From an uncultured Oscillospiraceae bacterium (GTDB taxonomy: Bacteria; Bacillota; Clostridia; Oscillospirales; Oscillospiraceae), in NCBI GenBank assembly GCA_947625355.1, contig CANQOA010000003.1:1-64000 (forward strand): 64,000 nt of DNA, given 5' to 3'. Made by a program: the position numbers and the translations under genes. A model generated the notes under the pieces. It was not told the DNA's origin. It saw nothing but the letters and a program-made list of their open reading frames with translations, and searched no databases. Below, one piece after another: positions 4,232 through 25,566 of this stretch; position 1 is the first letter of the stretch, and each line of letters begins with the position of its first letter.

Positions 4232-4645
4232 TCAGACCTGCTCCACGGTCTCCTTTTCCTCATCGCTCTTCCGCTTGTGGGAGGGCTTCTCCGGCAGGAG
4301 GCCGTTGTGATACATGGCCTCGATCTTGGCCTCCTTGGTGATCTCCCAGTAGATCATGGCCGCGACCAGGCCACGCAGAAGGATGATGGCGAAGATGGAG
4401 ACCAGCTCCGTCGTCTCCGTGGCGATCACCGTACGCAGCACCTCGCCGCCCATCTTGAAGGCCAGGGCCAGCAAAATGCCCTGAGAGATGGTGGTGCGCA
4501 CGTCCGGCGACTTTTTCAGCCACTTGATCATGCTGATGATGCCGGTGACCAGCAGCACCGAGGTGCCGAAGAATTCCAGGATCAGGATGCCCCACTCCAC
4601 CAGATAGCGGAACATCGTCTCCGCATGCGCGAGCATCGCGTTCAT
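4232..4645 (-). CDS. DUF1622-like small membrane protein
   Basis: Two to three TM helices, hydrophobic profile and charged tail resemble DUF1622 proteins; not confirmed by search. Confidence 0.6.
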   Translation of the reverse strand: MNAMLAHAETMFRYLVEWGILILEFFGTSVLLVTGIISMIKWLKKSPDVRTTISQGILLALAFKMGGEVLRTVIATETTELVSIFAIILLRGLVAAMIYWEITKEAKIEAMYHNGLLPEKPSHKRKSDEEKETVEQV

Positions 4646-4735
4646 ATAGGCCCCCCTCCTCACGGAAATAATAAATATTTATTTATCTATTTATTACTAT
4701 ACCGTATGATTGTGCATTCTGTCAATAGTCTGCCA

Positions 4736-19691: not shown

Positions 19692-20282
19692 TCAGGGCCG
19701 GATGACGCTGGGGGCCTGGGTGAGGCTCTCCACGATGTCGTACATATTGGACACCGTCCCCACCTGCAGCTTCTCCGTCAGACCGTAGAAGTTCAAGCAG
19801 GTGCCGCAGGCGGTGATCTTCACCCCCGCCTTCTCCAGGTTCCGCAGATCCTCCAGGCTGTCGGAGCCCTCGCAGGGCAGATACGCCCCGGAGTTGTAGA
19901 AGATGATCTGCTGGGGCAGCTGGGTGGCGTTGGTCAGCGCGAAGATGAACGCCTTCATCAGCGCCTTTCCCAGGGCCTCGTCGCCGTTGCCCATGGTGTT
20001 GGACCCGATGGCCACCACCGGGCCGGCCTGGGCACTCTCCGCGGCCGCCGCCGGGCCGCCGGCCTTCACCTGGATCGCCACGGCATAGGCCTTCTCCCCG
20101 GTCTGCGTCCCCTCGGCGGCGAAGCCCGAGGAAGCGGCCAGCTTTTTCAGGTTGCTCACGGCCGTCTCGTTGTCCACCAGCACCGTCAGCTCTCCGTCCT
20201 CCGTGAAATCGGCGAACGCCTTCTTCGCGTTCACAACGGGCAGCGGGCATGCCATGCCCATGCAGTCGATGGTCTTTTTCAT
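19692..20282 (-). CDS. yedF: Sulfurtransferase-like selenium metabolism protein YedF
   Basis: TusA-like N-terminus DCMGMACPLPVVNAKKA plus DsrE-like C-terminal domain with CGTCLNFYGL. Confidence 0.9.
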   Translation of the reverse strand: MKKTIDCMGMACPLPVVNAKKAFADFTEDGELTVLVDNETAVSNLKKLAASSGFAAEGTQTGEKAYAVAIQVKAGGPAAAAESAQAGPVVAIGSNTMGNGDEALGKALMKAFIFALTNATQLPQQIIFYNSGAYLPCEGSDSLEDLRNLEKAGVKITACGTCLNFYGLTEKLQVGTVSNMYDIVESLTQAPSVIRP

Positions 20283-20469: not shown

Positions 20470-21102
20470 CTATAATTTGTCCGCCGTGATCCTGACAAGC
20501 AGCAGGCGGCCCTCCCCCACGGTGATCTCCGCGGTCCCGCCGGGGAGCACCTCGTTGCTGACGCCGTATTGGTACTCGCTGGTGATCTCCGCGCCCTCCA
20601 GGGGATATTTTGCCCCCCGGATGGTGACGCCCCGGGCCAGACCGTCGATATTCAGCAGGGAGAAATACGCGAACCGGTCCGGCACACGGACCGGCTCCCG
20701 GGAGACGACGGCCAGCTCCCCGTAGTCATCCACCGCCATGGCGCTTTTCCCCAGGCTGTCCAGCCGCAGCAGGATGGACACATTGCCCAGGGTGTGGTCC
20801 AGACGGCCGCCGATGACCCCCAGCAGCAAAAACCGCTCATACCCCCGGCGCAGGGCCTCCTTCACGGCGTAGACCGTGTCGGTGTCGTCCTTCTCCCGGG
20901 GCAGGGTGATGGTCTCCGCCGCCAGGTCTGGCGCCGGGTGGGAGTCGAAATCCCCCACGATCAGGTCCGGGGCCCTGTCCAGCCCGTCCATGTGGTCCAG
21001 CCCGCAGTCGCAGTACACCATAAAGTCGTCCGCCCGCAGATAGGTCCGCGCCCGGTCATAGTCCCGGATGGGCGCCCCGCCGACGATGACGCACCGGCTC
21101 AT
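20470..21102 (-). CDS. Thiamine diphosphokinase
   Basis: VYCDCGLDHMDGLDRAPDLIVGDFDSHPAPD; EKDDTDTVYAVKEAL; GVIGGRLDHTLGNVSILL. Confidence 0.93.
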   Translation of the reverse strand: MSRCVIVGGAPIRDYDRARTYLRADDFMVYCDCGLDHMDGLDRAPDLIVGDFDSHPAPDLAAETITLPREKDDTDTVYAVKEALRRGYERFLLLGVIGGRLDHTLGNVSILLRLDSLGKSAMAVDDYGELAVVSREPVRVPDRFAYFSLLNIDGLARGVTIRGAKYPLEGAEITSEYQYGVSNEVLPGGTAEITVGEGRLLLVRITADKL

Positions 21103-21755
21103 GCCCCCACCGCCTTCCGGGCCAGGGCGGCCAGCTCCGCCGCGGCCGCGCCGGGGTCCGCCGCGCCGAAAATGGCCGACACCACCGCCGCGCCGTCGAT
21201 GCCGCTGCCGGCCAGGGACAGGATATTTCCCCGGTTGATGCCGCCGATGGCCACCACGGGGATGGCGACGGCGGCGCAGATGGCCCGCAGCCGCTCCATG
21301 GGCATGGGCCGGGCGTCCTTCTTGGTGCCGGTGGGGAACACCGCCCCCACGCCGATATAGTCCGCCCCGGCCTTTTCCGCCGCCACGGCCTCGGCCACCG
21401 TTCCGACGGATATGCCCAGGATGCGGTCCGGCCCGATGAGCGCTCGGATGTCCCGGCCGTGGATGTCGCTCTGGCCCACATGGACGCCGTCCGCGCCGCT
21501 TTCCAGCGCGATCTCCACGCTGTCGTTCACCACGAAGGGCACGCCCCGCGCCGCGCACAGCGCCTGCAAAGCCACGGCCTCCGCCGTCACCGCCTCCGGC
21601 GCCAGGGATTTCTCCCGCAGCTGCACGAATGTGGCCCCGCCGTCCAGCACCCGCCGGCACACCTCCGCCAGGCTCTGGCCCTCTCCCAGCCAGGCTCTGT
21701 CCGTCACCGCGTACAGGAGCATGGCCCGGCGGATCTCGTCTCGCGTGTATCTCAT
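21099..21755 (-). CDS. thiE: Thiamine-phosphate synthase
   Basis: LYAVTDRAW...GGATFVQLREKSL...FVVNDSVEIALESGADGVHVGQSD...DYIGVGAVFPTGTKKDA...PVVAIGGI. Confidence 0.97.
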   Translation of the reverse strand: MRYTRDEIRRAMLLYAVTDRAWLGEGQSLAEVCRRVLDGGATFVQLREKSLAPEAVTAEAVALQALCAARGVPFVVNDSVEIALESGADGVHVGQSDIHGRDIRALIGPDRILGISVGTVAEAVAAEKAGADYIGVGAVFPTGTKKDARPMPMERLRAICAAVAIPVVAIGGINRGNILSLAGSGIDGAAVVSAIFGAADPGAAAAELAALARKAVGA

Positions 21756-21775
21756 ATCTCGTCCTCCCTCAAAGC

Positions 21776-23308
21776 TCAGCGCCCGCTCTTTCGCAGCCGG
21801 GCAGAGGCCCAATCGATGAGCCAGACCAGCCCCACCAGTCCGATGGCGATGGCGCCGGCCTGGGGCCAGGCATACTGGTTCATGGCAAAGATCAGCGGCG
21901 CGCCGATGCCCCCCGCGCCCACCAGGCCCAGCACCGACGCCTCCCGGATGTTCACGTCGAAGCGGTACAGCACGGCCGAGGCCAACGCCGGCCCCAACTG
22001 GGGCAGCAGCGCGTACCGCACCCGCAGCACCGCTCCCACGCCCATGTCCGACAGCGCCCGCCAGGGCCGCATGTCCAGCCCGTCGATGGCCTCCGTGAAG
22101 CGCTTGGTGAGCAGCCCCACGCTGCAAACGGCGATGGTGAGTACGCCGGTGAAGGCCCCCGGCCCCGTGGCCCGGATGAAGATCAGGCCATAGACGAGGA
22201 AGGGCACCGAACGGATGGCCATGACCGCCAGCCGGAACACCAGCGCCACCGGCCGGGACACCAGCCGGGCCGTGCCCAGCAGCGCCAGAGGCAGCGCTAT
22301 GAATGCTCCCAGAGCCGTGCCCGCCAGGGCGATGCACACCGTCTCCAGCAGCAGATAGCCGAGCCCCCCGACGCCGGTATCGAAGAAAAAGCCCCAGTCC
22401 GGGCGGATCAGGCCCAGGAGCATATTCTTCACCGTGACCGGGCTCACCCGGGAGAAGTCCGGCGGCGCCACCGTGGCGGCGCACAGGCAGAAAAGCGCCC
22501 CAAAGCCCAATGCGAGGGCCCGGCGGCCCCGCTTTCCCAGGGGCCGGCGGCCGGTCACCACCGCCGTCAGCGCCGCGCTCACCCACTCGATGACGCACAC
22601 CGCCCCCAGCAGGGCCAGCAGGATGGCTCCCACCCGGTCATACTCCCGCCAGGAGATCTTCTCGTTCAGGATGAGCCCGATGCCCCCCGCGCCCACATAG
22701 CCCAGGATGGCGCTGTGGCGCACGTTGGTCTCCAGCATATACAGCGCGTTGGACAGATAGGACGGCGCCGCATAGGGCAGCACCGCCCGCGCAAAAGCCC
22801 TCCAGCGGCCCGCCCCCATGGCGGTCAGCGCCCGATAGGGCCCCAGGGGCGCCGTCTCGATGTCCTCATAGGTCAGCCGGGTCATGATGGCGAAGGTGTA
22901 GACCGTGATCGCCGCCGTCCCGGCGAAGGTGCCCAGCCCGAACAGGAACGTGGCCGTCAGGGCCAGGATGAGGGCCGGGAAGGAGCGCAGCACCTGCACC
23001 AGCAGCCGCAGCGCCCGCCGGGACCAGACCGGCATGCCCAGTCCTCCCGCGCACAGCGGCGCCGTGAGAAGCGCGAAAAAGGCACCCAGCGCCGTGCCCG
23101 CCACTGACATCTGCACCGTGGCCCACAGGGGGGCCCATATCCGGGAAAAGTACCCCCAATCCGGGGGGAACAGCCGCGTCAGGATGTCCGCCAGATGGTC
23201 CCGGCGGGACCACAGCAGCGCCGGGGAGCAGCCGGCAAACCGGGCCGCCAGGAACACCGCCAGCGCCGCCAGGGCCCAGAACGCCAGCCGTTTTCTCCGG
23301 CGGCTCAT
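21776..23308 (-). CDS. Phosphonate-type (PhnE-like) ABC transporter permease, two permease domains fused in tandem
   Basis: Two copies of a PhnE-like permease unit, each ending in an AGGIG loop (ILGYVGAGGIGLILNEKISW and VLGLVGAGGIGAPLIFAMNQ). Confidence 0.88.
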   Translation of the reverse strand: MSRRRKRLAFWALAALAVFLAARFAGCSPALLWSRRDHLADILTRLFPPDWGYFSRIWAPLWATVQMSVAGTALGAFFALLTAPLCAGGLGMPVWSRRALRLLVQVLRSFPALILALTATFLFGLGTFAGTAAITVYTFAIMTRLTYEDIETAPLGPYRALTAMGAGRWRAFARAVLPYAAPSYLSNALYMLETNVRHSAILGYVGAGGIGLILNEKISWREYDRVGAILLALLGAVCVIEWVSAALTAVVTGRRPLGKRGRRALALGFGALFCLCAATVAPPDFSRVSPVTVKNMLLGLIRPDWGFFFDTGVGGLGYLLLETVCIALAGTALGAFIALPLALLGTARLVSRPVALVFRLAVMAIRSVPFLVYGLIFIRATGPGAFTGVLTIAVCSVGLLTKRFTEAIDGLDMRPWRALSDMGVGAVLRVRYALLPQLGPALASAVLYRFDVNIREASVLGLVGAGGIGAPLIFAMNQYAWPQAGAIAIGLVGLVWLIDWASARLRKSGR

Positions 23309-24051
23309 CCGTCTCCCTCCCCGTAGATGGCGGCGAGGACCTGCTCCGACGCCCGGTCCACGGGGCCGTCATAGACCACCGCCCCGTCCCGCAGGCCGAT
23401 GAGCCGGTCGGAAAAGGTCTGGGCCAGGGCCAGGTTGTGGCTGTTCATCAGCACGGTCAGGCCCTCGGTCTGCTGGATGTCCTTCAAAAGCTCCAGGATC
23501 TGCCGGCCGGTGACCGGGTCCAGGGAGGCCACCGGCTCGTCTGCCAGCAGCATGGCCGGGTCCCGCATCAGCGCCCGGGCGATGGCCACCCGCTGCTTCT
23601 GCCCGCCGGACAGGTCCCGCACGGGCGCGTCCAGCTTGTCGCCCAGGCCCACCCGGTCCAGCAGCCCCGCGGCCTTCTCCCGCCGGGCCCTGCCGAACAG
23701 GCCCAGCACCGCCGGCAGAAAGGCCATATCCGGCAGGGCGGCGTTCAGCACGTTCTCCAGCGCGCTCACGCTCTCCACCAGGGCGAAGTCCTGATAGATG
23801 GTGCCCAGGTTTTTTTGCAGCGTGCGCTTGGCCCGCCCGGAGGCCCGCTCCAGATGGACGCCGGCAAAGACCACCTCTCCCCCGTCGCAGGGCTCCGCCC
23901 CGTTCAAAACGCGGATGAGGGTGGTCTTGCCCGCCCCGGAGGGGCCGATGACGGACACGAACTCTCCCTTTTCCAGGCCGAAGCCCACGTCCCGCAGGGC
24001 GTGGACCCGGCCGTTATAAGTCTTGCTGACGCCGCTGACCTGCAGATACAT
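23305..24051 (-). CDS. PhnC-like ABC transporter ATP-binding protein
   Basis: Walker A GPSGAGKTTL; LSGGQKQRVAIARAL; Walker B MLLADEPVASLDP. Confidence 0.93.
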   Translation of the reverse strand: MYLQVSGVSKTYNGRVHALRDVGFGLEKGEFVSVIGPSGAGKTTLIRVLNGAEPCDGGEVVFAGVHLERASGRAKRTLQKNLGTIYQDFALVESVSALENVLNAALPDMAFLPAVLGLFGRARREKAAGLLDRVGLGDKLDAPVRDLSGGQKQRVAIARALMRDPAMLLADEPVASLDPVTGRQILELLKDIQQTEGLTVLMNSHNLALAQTFSDRLIGLRDGAVVYDGPVDRASEQVLAAIYGEGDG

Positions 24052-24057
24052 GGCGGC

Positions 24058-25101
24058 TTACTCTTCCATCTGGCGCAGCAGCTGCTGGGCCGCCCGCTCG
24101 CCGTCATAGTCGGCGTCCTGGCCCCAGGTATAGCCCACCTGGCTGAACACGCCGAAGATGGCCTGGCCCTCCTCGGTCTGGGCCAGGTCGATGAACGCCT
24201 GGCCCAGAGCGGTGCGGAACTGCTCGTCCGCCATCAGGTCGGAGCTGAGGCTGTAAGCGATCAGGTCGTTGTAGATGCCGTCGGTCACGCCGATGACGGC
24301 GGTGTCCTCCGCCATGGGGCCGGGCCCGCCGTATTCGCTCTCCCAGACGGGGGCGTTCTTGATGCGGATGTGGCCGTAGGAGACCATCACATCCACCTGC
24401 TCCGCCGCCAGGCGCGCCACGGAGGTGGTGTGGGAGTCGCACTGGACCACATGCTCCAGGTCGCTGATGGACTTGCCGTAGTGGTCCTGCAGCCACAGGC
24501 AGGGATAGATATACCCGGAGGAGGACGTGGGGCTCAGCACCGCCCAGGTGGCGTCGTTCAGCTCCTCCCAGGTGGGCTCCTCGCCCTTTTCCACCTTCTC
24601 GGCCAGCGCCCGGCCCTTCTCGGAGGGGCCCGCCAGCACGATGCAGCGGTAATAGGTGCTCATGTCCTCGGTGTTCTCCTCGATGGTACCGTCGTTCCAG
24701 TCGGCCGGGTCCGTGGAGTCCTTGTTGATGGCGTAACGCAGCGCCGTGAGCAGCACGTCACACTCGTCGGAGAACAGCACATAGTTGCCCCCGGAGATGA
24801 AACCGATGTCGGCGCTGCCGGCGCCCAGGGCCTCCCCCACGGCGGTATAGCTGGTGCCGACGGTCATGTCGATGTCCTTCACGTCATAGCCCAGCTCCAA
24901 GAGCTTATCGTGCAGCAGGCTCTCCAGCGGCTCGGTGGCCGTGACGATCTGGTCCGCGTCGGCGTAGGGGGAGAAGGCGATCTTCAAACTCTCGATCTCC
25001 ACGGGCTCCTCCCCGTCGGCCAGGGCGGCGGCGCCGGACCCGGCCAGCAGGCACAGGCAGAGGACAACGGCGGTGAGTGCGGTCAGCAGATGTTTTTTCA
25101 T
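24058..25101 (-). CDS. PhnD-like phosphate/phosphite/phosphonate-family substrate-binding protein
   Basis: Signal peptide; IAFSPYADADQIVTATEPLESLLHDKL...ADIGFISGGNYVLFSDE...SPTSSSGYIYPCLWLQ typical of PhnD/PF12974. Confidence 0.88.
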   Translation of the reverse strand: MKKHLLTALTAVVLCLCLLAGSGAAALADGEEPVEIESLKIAFSPYADADQIVTATEPLESLLHDKLLELGYDVKDIDMTVGTSYTAVGEALGAGSADIGFISGGNYVLFSDECDVLLTALRYAINKDSTDPADWNDGTIEENTEDMSTYYRCIVLAGPSEKGRALAEKVEKGEEPTWEELNDATWAVLSPTSSSGYIYPCLWLQDHYGKSISDLEHVVQCDSHTTSVARLAAEQVDVMVSYGHIRIKNAPVWESEYGGPGPMAEDTAVIGVTDGIYNDLIAYSLSSDLMADEQFRTALGQAFIDLAQTEEGQAIFGVFSQVGYTWGQDADYDGERAAQQLLRQMEE

Positions 25102-25139: not shown

Positions 25140-25172
25140 AAAAAGACGGCATACGCAGCCGCGTATGCCGTC
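25140..25172 (-). terminator. Intrinsic terminator/attenuator preceding phnD-like gene
   Basis: Minus strand GACGGCATACGC-GGCT-GCGTATGCCGTC-TTTTT, 12-bp perfect arms plus U tract, 39 nt upstream of the start codon. Confidence 0.9.
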
Positions 25173-25290
25173 TCTGACCCTCAAGCAGCTGCTGACAGCC
25201 CGGCAATACCATGCCGGACGGTGGGGCGGTCGGTCCTTGATGGGACCCTCTCAACCCGGAACACGGGCTCCCTCGCAATCTGGTTTCGTC
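25173..25290 (-). promoter_or_regulatory. Putative riboswitch aptamer, partly TPP-like but divergent
   Basis: Minus-strand GAGGGAGCCCGTGTTCCGGGTTGAGAGGGTCC...GGACC matches the 5' half of TPP (GGGAGCC...GGyUGAGA); 3' half CCGTCCGGCATGGTATTGCCGGGCTGTC lacks canonical CTGATnnGG...CGTAGGGA. Confidence 0.6.
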
Positions 25291-25395
25291 ATCCAATATG
25301 ATATTGAGCGCAGCGCGGGGGCGCTCCCCCTCCCGCTGCATTCCGCAAACCGTGCCCAGTTTAGCACGCCAAGCAGAGTTTTACAAGAGAATTCT

Positions 25396-25424: not shown

Positions 25425-25437
25425 ACGCCCTGAACAA

Positions 25438-25524
25438 AAGGGGAGCCCATCGCAATGGGCTGAGAATCGGCTGTTCGGCCGTTACCCATGACCTGATTTG
25501 GATCATGCCAACGTAGGGAAATAG
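25438..25524 (+). ncRNA. TPP riboswitch (THI element)
   Basis: GGGGAGCCCATCGCAATGGGCTGAGAAT...ACCCATGACCTGATTTGGATCATGCCAACGTAGGGAA, canonical TPP consensus. Confidence 0.97.
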
Positions 25525-25535
25525 CGTGCGCGTCA

Positions 25536-25566
25536 CCGGCGGCTGTTTCCAGCCGCCGGCTTTGTT
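25536..25566 (+). terminator. Expression-platform terminator of TPP riboswitch
   Basis: CCGGCGGCTG-TTTC-CAGCCGCCGG followed by CTTTGTT. Confidence 0.85.

Follow-up and report, generated by a model that had tools for sequence, protein, structure and literature searches.

No riboswitch class is more common than that for thiamin pyrophosphate (TPP), and crystal structures place the pyrimidine ring of its ligand in the UGAGA joining segment. The riboswitch for hydroxymethylpyrimidine pyrophosphate (HMP-PP), also known as the thiS motif, is an ON switch with a compact, ~66-nt aptamer embedded in a terminator stem (Atilho et al. 2019, PMC6478431); it is found before thiW/thiE-type genes and in 20-30% of cases behind a TPP riboswitch (PMC6478431, PMC6429828). 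PMC9481103 further mentions unpublished variants of the TPP class that prefer thiamin or thiamin monophosphate (TMP). Here we describe an RNA from the minus-strand leader of a phnD-like gene of an uncultured Oscillospiraceae bacterium, located within positions 1 to 64,000 of contig CANQOA010000003.1 (assembly GCA_947625355.1; this 64,000-nt stretch is hereafter called the window). With a probability of about 0.78, we regard the leader as a metabolite-responsive cis-regulatory RNA, i.e. a riboswitch, of a class not contained in Rfam 15 and derived from the TPP aptamer, with the pyrimidine arm kept, P4/P5 lost and a hairpin with a GGAGCG loop gained. The structure of the RNA, its homology, its gene context and its alternative pairings were established by computation; the riboswitch reading is supported by covariation, by homology to the TPP 5′ half detected in both directions, by the thiazole gene context, by the alternative pairings and by the tandem position behind TPP riboswitches.

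An earlier note on this DNA had recognized in the leader a TPP-like 5′ half without the canonical P4/P5 side. Indeed, direct reading located this half (GAGGGAGCCCGTGTTCCGGGTTGAGAGGGTCC..GGACCGACCG) at about 25274-25227 on the minus strand, and a model made from the 5′ halves of TPP riboswitches only (R2, 47 positions) matched it at 25273-25227 with 33.1 bits (E=1.3e-6), the window's own TPP riboswitch scoring 26.8 bits. At all loci examined R2 detected the new RNA, with E-values ranging between 1e-10 and 3e-4. In the reverse direction, a model of the new class (R1), which scores 83.9 bits on the window leader (E=4.9e-19, at 25341-25227), picked up TPP riboswitches at 25-43 bits with E-values down to about 1e-7, and the loci shown from this band carry CCUGAU-type P4 and CG(U/A)AGG-type P5 sequences past the matched part. 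The 3′ half of the window leader, in contrast, contains no ACCUGAU..CGUAGGGA, and the P4/P5 signature (CCUGAU..CGUAGGGA) was absent within 90 nt from all 147 non-TPP members of the class, as opposed to being present in both true TPP riboswitches that the search pattern had picked up along with them. From these comparisons we conclude that the new RNA and the 5′ half of the TPP aptamer are homologous, the putative pyrimidine-sensing arm having been kept and the P4/P5 pyrophosphate arm lost. This homology disposes of an unrelated attenuator, which the earlier note had considered.

The two RNAs have in common the GGGA-GCC..GG(C/U)-UGAGAGG sequence, P3, the J3-2 segment UGAGA, the P3a hairpin, CGACC and a thiamin gene context. 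They differ in that the new RNA has no P4/P5 in any member and has the extra upstream GGAGCG hairpin, a fixed UGUUC loop and a CCA(G)nRAG-type P3a loop where TPP riboswitches vary, and GACCG for GACCC. Moreover, the Rfam comparison called for in the earlier note returned neither a full-length RF00059 match nor any other family: none of the Rfam 15 families matched the leader at the gathering threshold, and even under lax thresholds none was found for the window leader at E<=1 or for six relatives at E<=0.5, whereas the neighbouring TPP riboswitches did match. With the thiS motif the new RNA shares its niche, namely thiW/thiE/HET-P genes (HET-P, hydroxyethylthiazole phosphate) and a tandem position behind TPP riboswitches. 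Its architecture is different, the thiS motif being compared by description: the new RNA extends over ~170 nt before its terminator, comprises several hairpins and has pairings that predict an OFF switch, and its core (25341-25227) is separated from the downstream terminator (25172-25145) by more than 50 nt instead of being embedded in it. This rules out that the new RNA is the HMP-PP riboswitch itself.

The conserved RNA sets in near 25352, just past a promoter-like element, and the minus-strand leader runs from there to about 25140 (the distance between the promoter-like element and the PhnD-like gene being ~250 nt; Table 1). From this arrangement transcription would be predicted to begin near 25352, and five same-genus relatives retain both the TTG-type -35 and the TA(A/C)ACT -10 sequence. 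The element that the earlier note had placed at 25140-25290 is thus real, albeit that this span covers its 3′ part and the RNA starts ~60 nt further 5′. The perfect 12-bp terminator with a U tract was found as described, the phnD-like start codon at 25101 following 38 nt past U5, and terminator hairpins are present in other phnD-type leaders too. Across the five same-genus genomes, whose PhnD orthologues are 81-97% identical, the leader is strictly conserved from ~25352 to the terminator; one hairpin in these leaders changes sequence yet keeps pairing. The leader also folds more stably than expected by chance (z-score -3.6).

Homologous leaders were collected and examined for covariance, as the earlier note had proposed. 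The resulting alignment A3 (44 sequences, 19 base pairs scored) supports the 5′ hairpin with the GGAGCG loop, P3 with its UGUUC loop, UGAGAGG, P3a and CGACCG. In total, 92.6% of its cells pair, both partners change in 14 of the 19 pairs, and double-change cells number 195, as compared to 59 +/- 7 after shuffling and no more than 41 when the structure is slid. In the H1 helix all nine pairs vary on both sides, and the GGAGCG-type upstream hairpin, with a nearly invariant loop, occurs in 133 aligned members and is missing from the two true TPP riboswitches retrieved along with them by the search pattern. Comparison of six same-genus leaders by eye revealed compensating changes in the 5′ domain of one of them (L006), where GGUUU:AAACC is replaced by GGUC:GACC and CAAUA:UAUUG by UCUA:UAGA. 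Some of the invariance seen in the core (UGUUC, UGAGAGG) is owed to the search pattern itself, which does not constrain the GGAGCG hairpin, GCGA, CCA, CGACCG or the stems. UGAGA was accordingly present in 133/133 aligned members under a pattern requiring it; R1 and R2 matches found independently of the pattern keep UGAGA as well, and those to R1 retain UGAGAG and have UGUUU as well as UGUUC loops. Finally, P1 could be located, in that the nucleotides preceding GCGA pair with the region past P4: in 96 thiW-type leaders the own pairing comes to -9.5 kcal/mol versus -7.1 kcal/mol for swapped strands, and 0/20,000 permutations were as low. Together, this amounts to a conserved, covarying structure in the 5′ leaders of functionally related genes, a general criterion for a riboswitch.

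Further structural details were observed in individual members. Two copies (L053 at 4553-4678, and L165) carry a ~23-nt insertion within the P3a hairpin and are otherwise intact, so that the P3a tip seems to tolerate extension. In three others (L041, L068 and L099) a long additional hairpin separates the GGAGCG hairpin from the core, no upstream TPP riboswitch is visible, and the ribosome site lies within about 15 nt past the core, so that control may be direct there. In A3, the column pair 104:118 beside the UGAGA loop is an A.G mismatch in most thiW-type members (30/44 unpaired) and G-C or G-U in phnD-type members and TPP riboswitches, with the thiW members L047 and L095 keeping G-U; the mismatch could mark a difference in ligand specificity. 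A pseudoknot in the H1 region (CAGCG/GAGCG with CGCUG/CGCUC) was dropped, as one connecting loop would have zero length.

How the leader might switch is suggested by a strand that it can use twice. In phnD-type leaders the 3′ strand of P1, together with the nucleotides on its 5′ side, can pair with the terminator apex. In the window, GCAGCUGC (25192-25185), in the 3′ strand of P1, is complementary to GCGGCUGC at the terminator apex (25162-25155), giving a duplex of -16.6 kcal/mol, and this pairing accounts for the conservation of the terminator loop. Over 15 phnD-type leaders the antiterminator duplex averages -15.6 kcal/mol versus -9.1 kcal/mol for shuffled strands, and own pairs exceed swapped ones with p=0.003 (0.005 when each lineage contributes a single leader), values that are optimistic because the strands were chosen by eye after the leaders had been read. 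P1 and the antiterminator are mutually exclusive, and therefore stabilization of P1 favours termination. In the proposed sequence of events, ligand binding would hold P1 together (25282-25275 with 25192-25186), P1 formation would withdraw the strand that could otherwise pair with the terminator apex, and the terminator would then form and turn the phnDCE-thiE-thiN operon off. On this model the RNA is very probably a ligand-induced OFF switch, given that the ligand is assumed to stabilize P1 as it does in TPP riboswitches. In thiW-type leaders, the 3′ strands of P4 and P1 can pair with a CGUUUUCUCC-like segment further downstream, and the resulting hairpin is in competition with P1 and P4 (p<1e-4 and p=0.002); competition of P1 with this downstream hairpin would probably act on translation. 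Mutually exclusive expression-platform structures that share an aptamer strand are thus present in both types.

Blastn searches of 400 genomes of the family turned up homologues of full length in front of PhnD genes in other genera, and a shorter common core in front of thiW-thiM operons. The weaker of these matches were considered as ordinary TPP riboswitches, an assignment that was rejected: they are the same new RNA, located downstream of TPP riboswitches. A gene-blind scan of GTDB genomes with a core pattern returned at least 119 stretches, and 117 of the 119 among the matches listed carry the new RNA; viral contigs contained no match to the core pattern. The matches listed come from Lachnospiraceae, Oscillospiraceae, Veillonella, Anaerovibrio, Floccifex, Faecalibacillus, Fructobacillus and others. 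Their first recognized downstream gene encodes ThiW (97), ThiM (6) or PhnD (5), no gene was recognized for nine, mostly because the stretch ends, and the remaining two (L070 and L103), which have P4/P5 and lack the upstream hairpin, are true TPP riboswitches. In an even sample of the taxonomic class that includes the window genome, 16/291 genomes match R1 at 56 bits or more. Every recognized operon under the new RNA serves import of hydroxyethylthiazole (HET; ThiW) or its phosphorylation (ThiM), or joins a Phn-type importer to thiamin genes.

At least 81/119 thiW-type copies have a TPP riboswitch upstream in tandem, with the new RNA a median of 152 nt downstream; this is a lower bound, as the text pattern for upstream TPP riboswitches detected 31/119 in its strict and 81/119 in its relaxed form and the latter still missed the TPP riboswitch that Rfam finds in L040. 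None of 17 phnD-type copies lies behind a TPP riboswitch, and four have a divergent one on the opposite strand. One locus (L024, 1125-1387 and 1462-1551) has two TPP riboswitches in tandem, followed by the new RNA and thiW, a possible three-sensor leader. In another genome (G215, contigs C2 and C265), a phnD-type copy is accompanied by a second core-like match; a gene for a HET kinase follows this match after ~570 nt, and ThiC is close by.

In the window (Table 1), the leader precedes an operon in the order phnD-phnC-phnE(two domains)-thiE-thiN, the genes past phnD spanning 20470..24051 (-), which bears out the Phn-type transporter in a thiamin operon of the earlier note; a sequence search of PhnD against the PDB gave no match at E<=0.001. 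The canonical TPP riboswitch that the note had seen on the opposite strand is a full-length RF00059 match and the sole one in the genome, and it precedes thiD-tenA-thiZXY-like genes (Pfam: ThiD, ATPase, NMT1/THI5 protein), i.e. the HMP side. From the opposite-strand layout of the two RNAs it follows that TPP controls the HMP side, and that the side of thiE and the Phn-type transporter is under the new RNA. Elsewhere in the window we noted a TusA-DsrE two-domain protein (YedF-like; 19692-20282 (-)) downstream of thiE-thiN, whose membership in the operon is uncertain, and a ribosomal protein L10 leader (RF00557; 7473-7603 (-)) with 46.6 bits, just above the gathering score.

Table 1 Coordinates of the leader RNA, its control elements and the adjacent genes in the window
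Feature	Position	Strand	Details
Sigma-70-type promoter	25358..25386	-	-35 TTGTAA 25386-25381, 17-nt spacer, -10 TAAACT 25363-25358; consensus match only
5′ domain	25282..25351	-	P0 GGUUU 25351-25347 / AAACC 25286-25282, encloses GGAGCG hairpin and CAAUA/UAUUG hairpin
H1 hairpin	25311..25338	-	Loop GGAGCG 25327-25322; outer stem CAGCG 25338-25334 / CGCUG 25315-25311
P1 5′ strand	25275..25282	-	CAGAUUGC; pairs with 25192-25186
TPP-like core	25227..25273	-	GGGA, P3 GCCCG-UGUUC-CGGGU 25268-25254, J3-2 UGAGA 25253-25249, P3a GGGUCC..GGACC, CGACCG
P4 variable-sequence hairpin	25198..25219	-	GUCCGGCA..UGCCGGGC; at place of TPP P4/P5 arm; compensating changes in six leaders
P1 3′ strand	25185..25192	-	GCAGCUG(C); also antiterminator 5′ half
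Intrinsic terminator	25140..25172	-	Perfect 12-bp stem GACGGCATACGC-GGCT-GCGTATGCCGTC 25172-25145, then U5 25144-25140 (from sequence)
Terminator apex	25155..25162	-	GCGGCUGC; antiterminator 3′ half, 8 bp complementary to 25192-25185
PhnD-like ABC (ATP-binding cassette) substrate-binding protein, regulated gene 1	24058..25101	-	Pfam PF12974, E=3.6e-28
PhnC-like ATPase	23305-24051	-	Pfam/open reading frame (ORF)
PhnE-like permease	21776-23308	-	510 aa, two permease stretches in one protein; Pfam/ORF
ThiE	21099-21776	-	Pfam/ORF
Thiamin pyrophosphokinase ThiN	20470-21105	-	Pfam/ORF
TPP riboswitch	25430..25536	+	RF00059 full length, 54.1 bits vs gathering score 54.3

Since the controlled operons provide or use up the thiazole moiety of thiamin, what the RNA senses is probably a thiamin metabolite from the thiazole side or one closely related to it. 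The earlier note's suggestion of a variant aptamer for a thiamin-related ligand, its pyrophosphate side missing, is strongly supported by homology, loss of P4/P5, covariation and the thiazole-only context. As for the ligand itself, the combination of OFF polarity with this context favours HET or HET-P, a tentative assignment to which we give somewhat less than even odds; like all ligand gradings here, this is a matter of judgement rather than calculation. The Phn-type transporter family binds phosphonates. HET-P import by such a transporter fits the window genome, in which we found neither ThiC nor a HET kinase and in which the sole ThiG-like match is fragmentary, and this we take as a hint. 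Taking the missing HET kinase as proof of HET-P import was rejected, as the argument holds in the window genome and fails in 5/13 genomes.

Several points weigh against a thiazole-sensing OFF switch. By analogy, the kept UGAGA pocket would favour a ligand bearing the pyrimidine, i.e. HMP-PP, TMP, thiamin or TPP, over a thiazole. HET-P import by PhnDCE is not required either, given that 5/13 genomes with a phnD-type leader have a HET kinase. The OFF direction would depend on the usual assumption that the ligand stabilizes P1, and in the thiW type sequestration of the Shine-Dalgarno sequence was not above chance.

The first of these points bears on the alternative that fares best, a second and architecturally distinct sensor of HMP-PP or HMP (or its monophosphate), whose TPP-type pyrimidine pocket would bind the HMP moiety and which would turn thiazole supply ON when HMP-PP awaits its partner, in the manner of the thiS motif. 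Such a sensor would agree with the invariance of UGAGA, with a niche matching that of the validated HMP-PP riboswitch, in front of thiW/thiE-type HET-P genes and in many cases immediately behind a TPP riboswitch (PMC6478431, PMC6429828), and with the need of 12/13 genomes with a phnD-type leader, in which no ThiC was seen, to salvage HMP. P1 formation coincides with termination, however, which means OFF if the ligand stabilizes P1, and an HMP-PP sensor should be ON; we therefore consider it possible, if rather unlikely. Polarity poses no such difficulty for a sensor of thiamin or TMP, in which the pyrimidine arm would be kept and pyrophosphate recognition lost, as OFF suits an end-product. The unpublished Breaker-laboratory variants mentioned in PMC9481103 lend it a precedent in a TPP-derived aptamer with changed phosphate recognition; compared by description only, they possibly overlap with the new RNA, which differs in not being recognized as TPP by Rfam. 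We nonetheless deem this reading unlikely, a degree more so than an HMP sensor, because the HMP branch and thiamin transporters would be expected under the same control and only thiazole-side operons were seen.

Less probable still is a rearranged aptamer that continues to bind TPP, with the GGAGCG hairpin in place of P4/P5 and tandem copies sharpening the response. Direct derivation from the TPP aptamer would speak for it, as would the known TPP-TPP tandems (PMC9481103) and the L024 arrangement; the missing pyrophosphate arm in 147/147 non-TPP members does not, nor does the finding that the new RNA, unlike TPP riboswitches, was not found on the HMP branch, which in the window has its normal TPP riboswitch on the opposite strand. 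Some other ligand, or none, appears improbable to us, and a protein-binding attenuator acting independently of a small molecule slightly more improbable: the near-invariant H1 loop is what a protein site might look like, yet the core derives from a metabolite aptamer and recurs in distant genera before the same metabolic branch. A decayed TPP riboswitch, the other option of the earlier note, would account for a TPP-like 5′ half that lacks P4/P5 and is refuted by invariant positions, compensatory changes and a common additional hairpin across many genera.

No such motif is mentioned in the main texts of surveys covering 5, 26 and 50 genomes or of a tandem-riboswitch survey, and the open literature searched yielded no account of the new RNA, a prior description being possible; nor did we find in the open literature a published TPP derivative that keeps one ligand-binding arm and exchanges the other. 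We entertain, at odds of roughly one in three, that this is the first natural riboswitch class for HET or HET-P, built from one TPP arm and a new hairpin, which would govern the import of HET/HET-P in many Bacillota and often form a two-input gate behind a TPP riboswitch. If the riboswitch reading is correct, the RNA would be a natural example of one aptamer giving rise to another specificity, and a large RNA family currently missed by genome annotation. Gut and rumen Bacillota would then have separate regulation of the thiazole branch of vitamin B1 supply, drawing on two or more unrelated types of RNA, the new one and the thiS motif among them, and there is a hint that the PhnDCE-type transporter beside thiE may carry a thiamin precursor rather than a phosphonate.
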